A DNA stretch of 42,925 nucleotides from Burkholderiales bacterium (lineage in GTDB: Bacteria; Pseudomonadota; Gammaproteobacteria; Burkholderiales; Casimicrobiaceae): contig JAICKU010000027.1 of assembly GCA_025927765.1 (NCBI GenBank), positions 1-42,925 of the forward strand, read 5' to 3'. The position numbers and the translations under genes are program-made. The notes under the pieces are model-generated. The model did no database searches, was not told the DNA's origin, and saw nothing but the letters and a program-made list of their open reading frames with translations. This document shows, one piece after another, positions 31,899 to 36,443 of the stretch; positions within the stretch are counted from its first letter, which is position 1; each line of letters opens with the position of its first letter.

Positions 31899-32336
31899 AT
31901 GCGTCACTATGAGATCGTCTTTATCGTGCACCCCGATCAAAGCGAGCAGGTGCCCGCGATGATCGAGCGGTATCGCGCGATGGTCGCCAACCAGGGCGGG
32001 CGCATCCATCGTCTCGAAGACTGGGGCCGCCGCCAGCTGTCCTATCCGATCCAGAAGGTTCACAAGGCGCACTACGTGCTGATGAACATCGAATGCAACC
32101 TCGACACGCGCAACGAGCTCGAGCATGCGTTCAAGTTCAACGACGCGGTGCTGCGCCATCTCGTCATCGCTAAGAACGAGGCGGTCGTCACGCCGTCGCC
32201 GATGATGAAGGAAGAGAAGGCGCGTTCGCTCACGCATCGCGACGCGCGCGAAGGCCGCGAGGGCGAGCGTGCGGAGCGCGCAGGCGAGAAGCCCGCGGTC
32301 GAAGCGCCCGCGCAACCGGCCCCCGCGCAGGCCTGA
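31899..32336 (+). CDS. rpsF: 30S ribosomal protein S6
   Basis: 145-residue S6, a component of the small-subunit platform that binds S18. [20 protein letters not shown] begins the protein and [20 protein letters not shown] gives the central signature. The tail after residue 105 is Glu/Ala/Pro-rich ([20 protein letters not shown]), a common betaproteobacterial extension. AAGGAG precedes the ATG. It is first in the rpsF-priB-rpsR-rplI order conserved in Betaproteobacteria. Confidence 0.98.
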
Positions 32337-32351
32337 TCGCATCAGGCTCGT

Positions 32352-32669
32352 GTGCCGTGCGCCAACCGGCTCACGCTCGACGCGACGCTCGCCGCACGCG
32401 ATGCCCTTCGGCACACGCCGGCCGGCATTCCCGTGCTCGAGTGCACGCTGCACCACGAATCGATGCAGCGTGAAGCTGGCGGCGCGCGGCGGGTCGACTG
32501 CGACGTGCATGCGCTCGCCTTCGCCGACGTCGCACTCGCACTCGATCGCGTGGCCCTCGGCACGGCGCTTCGTTGCGAGGGCTTCATGGCGCGGCGCTAC
32601 CGGACCGGCGCGAGCCTGACGCTGCACGTCACCGGCTTCGAAGAGATCGTTATGACGAAAGGAAATTGA
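32352..32669 (+). CDS. priB: Primosomal replication protein N
   Basis: 105-residue OB-fold single-stranded-DNA-binding protein used in PriA-dependent replication restart. [20 protein letters not shown] then [20 protein letters not shown] matches the PriB N-terminal strand region. The start is GTG at 32352; no ATG is available before the conserved Asn-Arg-Leu. The gene lies between rpsF and rpsR as in other Beta- and Gammaproteobacteria, with one base before the rpsR ATG. Its presence with dnaB downstream links translation and replication genes. Confidence 0.93.
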
Positions 32670-32670
32670 G

Positions 32671-32958
32671 ATGCCACGTCCCGTGGGAAGAGGCAAGGGC
32701 AGGTTCAAGAAGGACGGCAAGCGCCGCGAGCGCGGCAACAACCTGTTCAAGCGCAAGAAGTTCTGCCGGTTCACGGCGGAGAACGTCAAGGAAATCGACT
32801 ACAAGGACATCGACGTCCTGAAGGATTTCGTCCAGGAGAACGGCAAGATCATGCCGGCGCGCATCACCGGCACGAAGGCGCGCTACCAGCGGCAGTTGAG
32901 CACCGCGATCAAGCGTGCGCGGTTCCTCGCGCTCCTGTCGTACACCGACCTGCACTAA
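32671..32958 (+). CDS. rpsR: 30S ribosomal protein S18
   Basis: 95-residue S18. It has a long basic N-terminal tail ([20 protein letters not shown]) then the core [20 protein letters not shown] and the ending [20 protein letters not shown], the S18 signature. The extra basic tail is typical of Betaproteobacteria. A GGAAATTGAG site overlaps the priB stop, giving coupled translation. Confidence 0.98.
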
Positions 32959-32970
32959 CCGGAGTCCGCG

Positions 32971-33429
32971 ATGCAAATCATTCTGCTCGAAAAGATCGCC
33001 AACGTCGGCAACCTCGGCGACGTCGTCAAGGTGCGCGACGGCTATGCGCGGAACTTCCTGATCCCGCAAGGCAAGGCCAAGCGCGCGACGCCGGCGAACC
33101 TGGAGGCGATCGAGGCGCGTCGCGCCGAGCTCGAGAAGGCCGCCGGGGAGAAGCTCGCGCAGGCGCAGGCGCAGGGGGAGAAGCTCGAAGGCACGACGCT
33201 TCGCATCGTCCAGAAGGCCGGCGTCGACGGGCGCCTGTTCGGCTCGGTCACGAACGCCGACGTCGCCGATGCGCTGAAGGCGCAAGGCGTCGACGTCGAG
33301 AAGTCGATGGTGCGCATGCCGTCGGGACCGCTGAAGCAGGTCGGCGAGTATCCGGTGGCGGTCGTGCTGCACACCGACGTGACGGCGAACGTCACTGTCA
33401 ACGTCGTCGGCGAAACCGTCGGCGCGTGA
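32971..33429 (+). CDS. rplI: 50S ribosomal protein L9
   Basis: 152-residue L9, which binds 23S rRNA near the L1 stalk and limits frameshifting. [20 protein letters not shown] and [19 protein letters not shown] form the N-terminal rRNA-binding domain, followed by the long connecting helix ([20 protein letters not shown]) and a C-terminal domain with [17 protein letters not shown]. The length is normal (about 150). It ends the ribosomal operon before a large terminator palindrome. Confidence 0.98.
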
Positions 33430-33626: not shown

Positions 33627-36443
33627 ATGCCGGACGATCTTCCCGTCGATTCGCTGAAGCTCCCGCCGCATTCGCTCGAGGCGGAGCAGTCGGTGCTGGG
33701 CGGGCTCATGCTCGACAACGACGCGGCCGATCGCATCGGCGACGTCGTGAGCGGCGAAGACTTCTACAGCGATGCGCATCGCATCGTGTTCCGCCAGATC
33801 ACGCAGCTGATCGCCGACGGCAAGCCGGCCGACGTCGTCACCGTGTCCGAAGCGCTCGCGTCCACGCAGAAGCTCGACTACGTCGGCGGCCTCGCCTACC
33901 TCGGCGCGCTCGCGCAGAACGTTCCCACCGCGGCGAACATCCGCCACTACGCGAACATCGTCCGCGAGCGCTCGATCCTGCGCCAGCTCGCGTCGACGGC
34001 GACCGAAATCGCGGAGGCCGCGTTCAATCCCCTCGGCCGCAGCGCGAAAATGGTGCTCGACGAAGCCGAGGCGAAGGTGCTGCACATCGCGGAGCAGGGC
34101 GCCCGCGGCGCGCAGAACTTCCGCGAGATCGGCCGGCTGCTGGCCGACGTCGTCGAGCGCATCGAGACACTGTACAACCGTGACGATCCCTCCGACGTCA
34201 CGGGCGTGCCCACGGGATTCTCCGACCTCGACAAGATGACATCGGGCTTCCAACCCGGCGATCTCATCGTCGTGGCGGGACGACCGAGCATGGGCAAGGC
34301 GCAGCCGCTCGACGCGCGCGTGCGCACGCTCGCCGGCTGGAAGCCGATGGGCGACGTGCGCGTGGGCGACGCACTCGCGTCGATCGACGGCGCACCGTCG
34401 TTCGTGAGCGGCGTGTTTCCGCAGGGCGAACGCGAGGTGCATCGCGTCACGTTTTCGGACGGCCGGTCGTGCGAATGCTGCGCCGAGCATCTGTGGCGCG
34501 TGCACTGCCGCGATTGGGACGCGCCGCGCGTGCTTCGCACCGATCGTGTCGCCGACATGTTGACGCGCGTGCGGTATCGCGGGCGGCTGTGGATCGACAT
34601 GCCGAGCGGCGATTTCGGCAGCGGCGATGTGCCGATCGATCCCTGGGTACTGGGGGCGTTGATCGGCGATGGAACGTTATCGGAAGGCACGCCACGTTTT
34701 TCGACGATCGCCGCGTCGATGTGCGAGCGAATGCGCGAGCGCGCCGATGCAAGGCTCGAGCTCGTGCATGCGGGCGGCGTCGATTGGCGCATCGCGCAGC
34801 GGCGCCGCGTGGAAGGCGTACGAGGCAGCGTCGCCAATGCGCTGACCGCTTCATTGCGCGCGCTCGGACTCTGGGGCCTGCCGAGCCACGAGAAGTTCAT
34901 CCCGCGCACGTATCTCGACGCCTCGCGCAGTTCCCGCCTCGACCTTCTGCGTGGCCTGCTCGACACCGAGGGCCGCGTGGAGCGCTTCGGCACCGTGCGC
35001 TTCGCCACGTCGAGCCCGCGGCTCGCCACGGATGTGACCGAGCTCGTGCGCTCGCTCGGCGGCTGCTGCAGCGTGCAAAGGAGGCAGCCGAACCATTCGT
35101 ACCGCGGCGAGCGCAGGATCGGCCGGGCGAGCTTCACGTGCACGATTCGCCATCCGGATCCGTCGTCGCTGCTGTTGCTGTCGGATGATTTCGCGCGCAT
35201 CAAGCCGGTGCAGCGCAACACGCGCCCGACGTTCGCGTCGATCGTGCGCACGCGCGTCACGCCGACGCAGTGCATCGCGGTGACGCACCCGTCGCGGCTC
35301 TACATCACCGACGACTACGTCGTGACGCACAACACCGCGTTCGCGCTCAACATCGGCGAGAACGTTGCGCTCAACACCGGCATGCCGGTCGCCGTGTTCT
35401 CGATGGAAATGGGGGCCGCACAGCTCGCGCTGCGGATGATCGGCTCCGTGGGGAAGCTCGACCAGCACAAGCTTCGCACGGGCCGACTTGGCGATGAGGA
35501 TTGGGACAAGCTCTCCGCGGCGCTCGGGCGGCTCAACGAAGCGCCGATCCTCATCGACGAAACACCGGCGCTCAACGCGATCGAAGTACGCTCGCGCGCG
35601 CGCCGTTTGATGAAGCAGTACGGCAAGCTCGGCATGGTGATCGTCGACTACCTGCAATTGATGCAGGCGACGACGCAGGGCGAGAACCGCGCCACCGAGA
35701 TCTCGGAAATCTCACGCGCGATGAAGTCGCTGGCGAAGGAGTTGTCGGTGCCCGTAGTCGCGCTGTCGCAGCTCAATCGCTCGCTCGAGCAGCGTCCGAA
35801 CAAGCGGCCGGTGATGTCCGATCTTCGCGAATGCGTGACAGGTGACACGTTGGTCATCCTCGCGGACGGGCGGCGCGTCGCGATCCGCGGCCTCGTCGGT
35901 CAGACGCCTGATGTCGTGGCCGTGGACGACGATCACCGTCTGACGAGGGCGAAGTCCGAGATCGTGTGGTCGAAGGGCGTGAAGCCGATCTACGAAGTGG
36001 CGCTTGCCAGCGGCCGCAGGGTTCGCGCGACCGCCGAGCATCGACTGCTGGCCTATGCAGGATGGCGCACGGTGGGTGAGCTCGCAGCCGGCGATCGCCT
36101 GGCCGTCGCAAACGAACTCGAGCAGGGCGGCGGCCTGGGTTGGGACCGGATCGTCACGCTCGAGCCGGCCGGCGAGGAGGAAGTCTTCGACATGACCGTC
36201 CCGGGGCCTTCGTGCTGGCTTGCCGACGGCATCGTCAGCCATAACTCGGGCGCCATCGAGCAGGATGCGGACGTCATCGTCTTCATCTATCGCGACGAGG
36301 TCTACAACCAGGAATCGCAGGACAAGGGCACGGCCGAGATCATCATCGGCAAGCAGCGTAACGGGCCGATCGGCACGATTCGCCTCACGTTCCTCGGCGA
36401 GTACACGCGCTTCGAGAATTTCGCGGCGCCCGGCAGCTACTGA
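33627..36443 (+). CDS. dnaB: Replicative DNA helicase DnaB, precursor with two inteins
   Basis: 938-residue precursor of the hexameric replication helicase. The extein begins PHSLEAEQSVLGGLMLDNDA (N-terminal primase-binding domain, about 13-110), continues through GVPTGFSDLDKMTSGFQPGD to Walker A GRPSMGK (218-224), where intein 1 (225-569) splits Lys224 from the next extein residue Thr570. The helicase core resumes TAFALNIGENVALNTGMPVA, with Walker B GMVIVDYLQLM and VVALSQLNRSLEQRPNKRP; intein 2 (736-873) sits after SDLRE. The last part is SGAIEQDADVIVFIYRDEVY and GKQRNGPIGTIRLTFLGEYT. Removing both inteins leaves 455 residues, the normal DnaB length. No frameshift or stop interrupts either insert, so splicing is required for a working helicase. 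It is the only dnaB seen in its conserved place after rplI. Confidence 0.97.
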   Translation: MPDDLPVDSLKLPPHSLEAEQSVLGGLMLDNDAADRIGDVVSGEDFYSDAHRIVFRQITQLIADGKPADVVTVSEALASTQKLDYVGGLAYLGALAQNVPTAANIRHYANIVRERSILRQLASTATEIAEAAFNPLGRSAKMVLDEAEAKVLHIAEQGARGAQNFREIGRLLADVVERIETLYNRDDPSDVTGVPTGFSDLDKMTSGFQPGDLIVVAGRPSMGKAQPLDARVRTLAGWKPMGDVRVGDALASIDGAPSFVSGVFPQGEREVHRVTFSDGRSCECCAEHLWRVHCRDWDAPRVLRTDRVADMLTRVRYRGRLWIDMPSGDFGSGDVPIDPWVLGALIGDGTLSEGTPRFSTIAASMCERMRERADARLELVHAGGVDWRIAQRRRVEGVRGSVANALTASLRALGLWGLPSHEKFIPRTYLDASRSSRLDLLRGLLDTEGRVERFGTVRFATSSPRLATDVTELVRSLGGCCSVQRRQPNHSYRGERRIGRASFTCTIRHPDPSSLLLLSDDFARIKPVQRNTRPTFASIVRTRVTPTQCIAVTHPSRLYITDDYVVTHNTAFALNIGENVALNTGMPVAVFSMEMGAAQLALRMIGSVGKLDQHKLRTGRLGDEDWDKLSAALGRLNEAPILIDETPALNAIEVRSRARRLMKQYGKLGMVIVDYLQLMQATTQGENRATEISEISRAMKSLAKELSVPVVALSQLNRSLEQRPNKRPVMSDLRECVTGDTLVILADGRRVAIRGLVGQTPDVVAVDDDHRLTRAKSEIVWSKGVKPIYEVALASGRRVRATAEHRLLAYAGWRTVGELAAGDRLAVANELEQGGGLGWDRIVTLEPAGEEEVFDMTVPGPSCWLADGIVSHNSGAIEQDADVIVFIYRDEVYNQESQDKGTAEIIIGKQRNGPIGTIRLTFLGEYTRFENFAAPGSY
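34299..35333 (+). mobile_element. Class 3 intein with LAGLIDADG homing endonuclease (in DnaB P-loop)
   Basis: 345-residue in-frame intein (precursor residues 225-569). Its first residue is Ala (AQPLDARVRTLAGWKPMGD), not Cys/Ser, and it ends in VVTHN followed by extein Thr. Block B reads GRSCECCAEHLWRV with His64 and Trp66 (block B position 12); block F reads TPTQCIAVTH with Cys325 (F position 4); block G has Thr343 before His344-Asn345. This Trp-Cys-Thr set plus Ala1 is the signature of class 3 inteins, which splice through the block F cysteine. Between the splicing halves lie two LAGLIDADG-like motifs, VLGALIGDGT (117-126) and LLRGLLDTEG (216-225), each keeping an acidic residue, so the endonuclease may be active. 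Coordinates use intein numbering. Confidence 0.9.
35832..36245 (+). mobile_element. Class 1 mini-intein (in DnaB, LRE/SGAIEQDAD site)
   Basis: 138-residue in-frame intein (precursor residues 736-873). Block A is Cys1 in CVTGDTLVILADGRRV; block B is GRRVRATAEHRLLAY with Thr67 and His70; block F is EVFDMTVPGPSCWLADG with Asp120; block G is IVSHN, with His137 and Asn138, followed by extein Ser. All residues of the standard (class 1) splicing path are present. There is no room for an endonuclease, so it is a mini-intein that can no longer home on its own. The insertion point is the same conserved DnaB motif used by the well-known Synechocystis DnaB intein. Confidence 0.93.

Follow-up and report, generated by a model that had tools for sequence, protein, structure and literature searches.

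A class 3 intein, as judged by its residues, in the Walker A codons of a chromosomal dnaB of the Burkholderiales

The window analysed here, a stretch of 42,925 nucleotides (contig JAICKU010000027.1 of assembly GCA_025927765.1) from a bacterium of the Burkholderiales (Casimicrobiaceae), contains a dnaB gene, coding for the precursor of a replicative DNA helicase, that is interrupted by two inteins. The first of these (intein 1) lies in frame between GRPSMGK and TAFALN and thus splits the Walker A Lys of DnaB from the Walker A Thr; its residues argue strongly for an assignment to class 3. Intein 1 is read here, with a probability of about 0.93, as a full-length class 3 intein in the Walker A codons of dnaB, where it is probably homing.

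The insert begins with Ala-Gln-Pro-Leu and ends with Val-Thr-His-Asn, followed by Thr at +1, such that position 1 is occupied by Ala and not by Cys, Ser or Thr. The Trp-Cys-Thr set that marks the class is complete, with Trp66 at B12, Cys325 at F4, and Thr343 at G5, and is accompanied by the block B His64 at B10, the penultimate His344, and the terminal Asn345. The placement is based on alignments with the solved structures 6bs8 and 6rix, in which His64-Leu-Trp66 lies opposite the His-x-Trp of block B, Cys325 opposite a Cys, and Thr343-His-Asn opposite Thr-His-Asn, the second aligned stretch scoring only about 5 bits by itself. A first-pass annotation of this DNA had given the same site between Walker A Lys and Thr, the same residues (Ala1, Trp66, Cys325, and Thr343 before His-Asn) in the same B12/F4/G5 register, and a betaproteobacterial origin, which fits; the spliced length of 455 residues that it had predicted was reproduced by removing both inserts.

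Concerning the conservation of these residues, the best 80 of 188 bacterial and the best 80 of 148 viral relatives were fetched, and 21 further viral loci, partly on the same contigs, were added from a pattern search of IMG/VR. Of 196 matched open reading frames, 9 were not full length and were dropped; among the 187 loci kept, two copies of the window (L001, L002) were removed, leaving 185 loci with 165 distinct inteins (83 bacterial, 82 viral), and only rows whose profile match reached the C-terminal end were counted. His64, Trp66, Cys325, Thr343, His344, and Asn345 are each found in 165/165 distinct full-length homologues. Neither Cys325 nor Thr343 was part of the bacterial or viral fetch patterns, and YITDDYVV, just N-terminal of Thr343, was among the six IMG/VR patterns. 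Some patterns contained HLW, hence the count for Trp66 is partly biased; the invariance of Trp66 and Cys61 was not accepted at face value, since the search patterns held both, and was recounted on non-matching rows. Outside the HLW patterns, Trp66 is present in 26/26 bacterial and in 7/7 and 8/8 viral distinct rows, as well as in 6/6 rows from a whole-genome search. Cys occupies the position of Cys61 in 74 of the 83 bacterial and 80 of the 82 viral rows (with patterns that partly held this Cys), and outside the HLW patterns in 18/26 bacterial and in 6/7 and 7/8 viral rows, and in 5/6 whole-genome rows.

The Gly-Lys junction counts were likewise rejected at face value and recounted, because one pattern held SMGKAQ. 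All 83 distinct bacterial rows possess Trp-Cys-Thr, 82 of them within DnaB-like exteins, and the junctions GK/A and THN/T occur in 85/85 full-length bacterial loci (83 distinct; one pattern held the first junction). In the viral distinct rows, Gly-Lys precedes the intein in 71/82 (61/72 without the junction-bearing pattern), and DnaB-like exteins are found in 18/82; viral rows without Ala at position 1 carry Pro (two rows), Cys (one), or Ser (one), as set by automatic boundaries. One intein family occupies Gly-Lys/Thr or Gly-Lys/Ser junctions in a wide range of P-loop ATPases on viral contigs. Two viral contigs (L024, L025) carry a homologue that combines Cys at position 1 with the Trp-Cys-Thr set.

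In a phmmer search against solved structures, five matches were obtained, namely 6bs8 (9.6e-8), 6riz (2.8e-7), 6rix, 6riy, and 6qaz (6.4e-6), of which 6riz and 6qaz are gp41-1 inteins, the former engineered towards Trp-Cys-Thr and the latter native class 1. The general intein models PF14890 and TIGR01445 match intein 2 but not intein 1. An AlphaFold2 model of intein 1, based on an alignment of 50 of the 165 distinct inteins, reached a mean predicted local distance difference test (pLDDT) score of 92.8 and a predicted template modelling (pTM) score of 0.90, and consists of a splicing domain and a LAGLIDADG endonuclease. The first 16 Foldseek matches of this model are endonuclease-bearing inteins (TliVMA, PI-SceI, and others) over the whole, whereas for the splicing part the class 3 DnaB intein 6bs8 follows at rank 17, with 6riy and 6rix shortly after. 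The endonuclease fold, the two LAGLIDADG motifs, and a match to PF14528 mark intein 1 as a candidate homing intein. In four other bacterial dnaB inteins (L087, L088, L092, L103), the second LAGLIDADG motif is altered (Glu-Ala, Asn, Gly, and Cys, each in a single row), which is perhaps a sign of endonuclease decay.

The boundaries of intein 1 are confirmed by empty sites within the genus. Among 22 genomes sampled (the window's own and 21 others), a dnaB match was obtained in 20, with none for G018 and G020. An intein occupies the Walker A site in 5/20 (G000, G004, and G005, and partially, at contig ends, G009 and G014); this site is empty in 15/20, and the gap amounts to exactly 0 residues in 15/15. 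At the second site, 10 of these genes have an intein and 9 do not, the state being undeterminable in G014, and dnaB genes with neither, either, and both inteins all occur. An extein tree of 30 rows, in which seven rows from other genera were scored as empty on the basis of an unbroken match length, requires at least 6 presence changes for each intein, gain and loss being indistinguishable on it. Across the order, 21 of 399 evenly drawn genomes (the window's included) contain a relative of the intein at an E value of 1e-30 or better, a count of matches with unchecked host genes. Matches of 27-32% elsewhere in same-genus dnaB genes had been considered as extra copies of intein 1; they were rejected as such, since the second site holds a class 1 intein whose LAGLIDADG part accounts for them. 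In the bacterial family of the window, a relative of intein 1 (L012, contig C58 of G027; 39%) is situated at GGPGVGK/T of a RecD-like helicase, so named by eye, and the dnaB of that genome, on contig C166, possesses intein 2 only.

The genome of the window (4.0 Mb, about 96% complete) contains one single full DnaB match, which is the window gene, such that the latter is most likely the replicative helicase. With class 3 residues in a chromosomal replicative dnaB, intein 1 would best be expected to splice by way of its block F Cys, by homology with inteins in which the class 3 route was demonstrated experimentally, according to passages of PMC5222942 and PMC6195587. Aided by His64 and Thr343, Cys325 would attack the peptide bond between Lys and Ala1 and thereby bind the N-extein in a thioester; the next acceptor of the N-extein would be Thr+1, i.e., the Walker A Thr, Asn345 would cyclise, and the exteins would be joined as GRPSMGKT. 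The use of ATP by DnaB should then require prior splicing. The endonuclease, for its part, would spread intein 1 among intein-free dnaB alleles, recently mostly between bacteria.

A class 2 route would be compatible with Ala1, as follows from the class 2 definition in a passage of PMC5222942. It is nevertheless highly improbable and was rejected on both residues and experiment: the full Trp-Cys-Thr set is present together with Thr+1, Cys325 is invariant among the homologues, and experiments on a homologue at the P-loop, M. smegmatis DnaB-1, demonstrated that its F4 Cys is required, as also reported in PMC5222942. Just as improbable is a dead or decaying intein, which would leave the precursor unspliced and dnaB non-functional. 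A precedent is the class 3 intein pseudogene of Arthrobacter (Arth_1007, as described in PMC3196547), and the second endonuclease motif of intein 1 departs from the common form. On the other side, the reading frame of dnaB is open throughout, every splicing residue is present, and this gene is the only full DnaB match of its nearly complete genome. Furthermore, the ratio of nonsynonymous to synonymous substitution rates (dN/dS) against G005 is 0.16 in the splicing part, 0.30 in the endonuclease, and 0.13 and 0.08 in the exteins; the dN/dS values, including those against G004, are all well below 1 and speak against a dead element.

Several observations weigh against the reading as a class 3 intein homing in dnaB. 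The gp41-1 inteins come near to 6bs8 in score, both in sequence and in fold, and the search against solved structures is consequently no test of class; kinship alone does not suffice, and it is the residues that decide. In the second LAGLIDADG motif, intein 1 possesses Glu224 where 77 of the 83 bacterial rows have Asp, which makes the activity of the endonuclease uncertain. Against G004, dN/dS is 0.32 in the splicing part and 0.35 in the endonuclease, the exteins having 0.39 and 0.30. The synonymous rate (dS) against G005 is higher in the intein (0.93) than in the exteins (0.50, 0.65), which may reflect saturation or separate arrivals. Finally, the branch that sets off the five inteins of the genus is weakly supported (69/90), and the intein of G009 is just 56% identical to that of the window despite belonging to the same genus.

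The first-pass annotation had further proposed that this betaproteobacterial dnaB acquired its intein from a phage-borne helicase. Its placing of an intein of class 3 residues in a chromosomal dnaB stands, whereas the acquisition, understood as a recent event, is not borne out. The inteins most similar to that of the window are chromosomal ones of the same genus (G014, partial, 71%; G005, 68%; G004, 62%), whereas the best viral identities, among the best 80 of 148 pattern matches and the loci from the IMG/VR patterns, are 56% (L119) and 55% (L018). In a quick unrooted tree of 88 of the 165 rows, thinned by identity, a starred DnaB-site clade (100) comprises 54 inteins, 43 chromosomal and 11 viral, and the smallest starred clade around the window (97) consists of 26 chromosomal dnaB inteins and 0 viral ones. 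In a more careful tree of 49 rows, also unrooted, the window intein groups with those of G005 and G014 (support 100/97, starred). One viral row, L119, lies at an unresolved position in the next starred set around this group, which comprises 40 rows (97/89). Since both trees are unrooted, the direction of transfer is not readable from them. The composition of intein 1 is near that of the exteins (G+C 0.690 and 0.653; at third positions 0.861 and 0.884) and gives no sign of a fresh arrival.

In favour of a phage donor, matches exist in 490 of 50,697 phage records (448 of them over at least 80% of the query, the class being checked in LucasX only), viral DnaB-site inteins branch among chromosomal ones, and L119, within the 40-row clade, is as close to the window as the same-genus G009. 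Tori and Perler reportedly proposed in 2011 that class 3 inteins originated in phages. Plasmid records with a match number 32 of 72,556. Nevertheless, within the relatives fetched, the nearest ones are not found in phages, and a recent phage source, sought in IMG/VR, phage records, and plasmids, was rejected on the viral identities given above and must be considered improbable, whereas an old phage link is plausible. As far as these sequences can be traced, the latest kin of the window intein are chromosomal, and the genus as a whole is not clearly apart from its phage relatives. Three viral contigs that were checked (L018, L119, L019) encode DnaB-like helicases assigned to phrog_19; this family was rejected as a mark of phage-type DnaB, as the N-extein of the window matches it too. 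Rows titled Rokubacteria, Planctomycetota (Phycisphaerae), and Electronema fall among the proteobacterial ones in the quick tree, a sign of transfer across phyla, provided that the metagenome bins are correct.

Class 3 was recognized from the DnaB intein of mycobacteriophage Bethlehem, according to a title cited in PMC5222942. A count of 1701 class 3 inteins in nr, 82.5% of them with LAGLIDADG motifs, is given in a passage of PMC7891396, and in the part of PMC5050341 considered here, insertion between the P-loop Lys and Thr is called classic and the sharing of class 3 inteins between phages and hosts is discussed. Among characterized inteins, the class 3 inteins DnaBi1 of M. smegmatis (6bs8) and DnaB1 of M. 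chimaera (6rix, 6riy) share with intein 1 the His-x-Trp of block B, the F4 Cys, and Thr-His-Asn. The organization of M. smegmatis DnaB is similar to that of the window also in Ala1, in the P-loop site, and in that the protein contains a class 1 intein as well. There are differences between the two, however: DnaBi1, a mini-intein, possesses the Asp of DxxH and Cys48, whereas intein 1 carries an endonuclease, has Cys61 at B7, and by alignment possesses Val47 in the place of Cys48; the bearer of the endonuclease is the class 1 intein in M. smegmatis and the class 3 intein in the window (M. smegmatis details other than the aligned residues from PMC6195587).

Equally to the window, chromosomal P-loop dnaB inteins of Burkholderia, Paraburkholderia, Trinickia, Polynucleobacter, Ramlibacter, and others exhibit the same junctions and Trp-Cys-Thr, with 39-68% identity to intein 1 among distinct full-length rows (about 49-50% in Polynucleobacter). 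The IcmO intein of Burkholderia vietnamiensis, as reported in sections of PMC5222942, follows experimentally the class 3 route predicted here, but is a mini-intein in a plasmid-borne IcmO with Cys+1. The DnaB intein of Xanthomonas phage LucasX (40% identical) lies at the same Lys/Thr P-loop site and has HLW, QCISV, and THN, and the mycobacteriophage intein TerL1-a is also inserted after Lys and before Thr of a P-loop (a passage of PMC5050341; class unchecked).

Within class 3, the DnaB P-loop branch possesses a second conserved thiol, Cys61 at B7, a position occupied by Asp in DnaBi1. Class 3 inteins generally have no conserved residue at B7, and in the structure of another class 3 intein the side chain in this place (N3:7 Ser) lies beside the N-terminal scissile bond, as stated in excerpts of PMC7891396. 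It may be speculated, as a rather doubtful idea drawn by analogy, that a reversible disulfide between Cys61 and Cys325 pauses the maturation of DnaB under oxidation, as a redox brake comparable to the one in M. smegmatis DnaBi1; in contrast to the latter, the partner Cys would be a different one here and is conserved across the branch. Replication would then be held until the cell is reduced again.

The features of the gene and its surroundings are listed in Table 1. The genes rpsF, priB, rpsR, and rplI are usually found upstream of dnaB, and the same order is present here, the names priB and rpsR having been given by eye.

Table 1. Positions of the dnaB gene, its inteins and exteins, and the upstream genes in the window
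Feature	Coordinates	Strand	Remarks
dnaB, replicative DNA helicase precursor	33627..36443	+	938 amino acids, two inteins; PF00772, PF03796, TIGR00665
N-extein	33627..34298	+	ends ...GRPSMGK (Walker A up to Lys)
Intein 1	34299..35333	+	345 amino acids, precursor residues 225-569; class 3 by residues, LAGLIDADG endonuclease
Ala1 (A1)	34299..34301	+	no nucleophile; Ala in 83/83 bacterial and 78/82 viral distinct inteins
Cys61 (B7)	34479..34481	+	corresponds to the Thr of TxxH in class 1 inteins
His64 (B10)	34488..34490	+	
Trp66 (B12)	34494..34496	+	Trp of Trp-Cys-Thr
First LAGLIDADG motif	34650..34673	+	LGALIGDG
Second LAGLIDADG motif	34947..34973	+	LRGLLDTEG; PF14528 match at residues 215-262
Cys325 (F4)	35271..35273	+	predicted initiating nucleophile; precursor Cys549
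Thr343-His344-Asn345 (G5-G7)	35325..35333	+	
Thr+1	35334..35336	+	doubles as Walker A Thr of mature DnaB
Middle extein	35334..35831	+	
Intein 2	35832..36245	+	138 amino acids, precursor residues 736-873; class 1 by Cys1, TxxH, His-Asn; no endonuclease
C-extein and stop	36246..36443	+	
rpsF	31899-32336	+	upstream block 31899..33429 matched PF01250, PF22657, PF03948
SSB-like gene in the place of priB	32352-32669	+	name priB by eye
rpsR	32671-32958	+	named by eye
rplI	32971-33429	+	

Intein 2 served as an internal control, read by eye: it exhibits Cys1, TAEHRL, Asp in the place of F4, and Ser-His-Asn, without Trp-Cys-Thr. Its relatives measure 420-422 amino acids in 9/9 compared, i.e., about 283 residues more, which constitute an endonuclease in the same place. 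As this endonuclease is kept by all of them, its loss in the window, where intein 2 is a mini-intein, looks recent. The endonuclease part in such second-site inteins resembles that of intein 1 (27-32% over stretches within intein 1 residues 28-269), namely in the dnaB rows L006, L007, L232, L235, L242, L244, L246, L249, and L250 of relatives, such that related endonucleases are found in both inteins of a single gene.

Class 3 inteins, insertion at the P-loop, and the combination of a class 3 and a class 1 intein in one DnaB are already in print, and no concept is changed by the present case. Searches of open-licence PubMed Central yielded no title that concerns class 3 inteins in the chromosomal DnaB of betaproteobacteria, a scope outside which most subscription journals fall, such that absence from print is not claimed. 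The window adds a well-anchored case of class 3 in a chromosomal dnaB. As one genus includes dnaB genes without inteins, with one of two inteins that differ in class, and with both, gain, loss, and endonuclease decay can be compared there in one essential gene.

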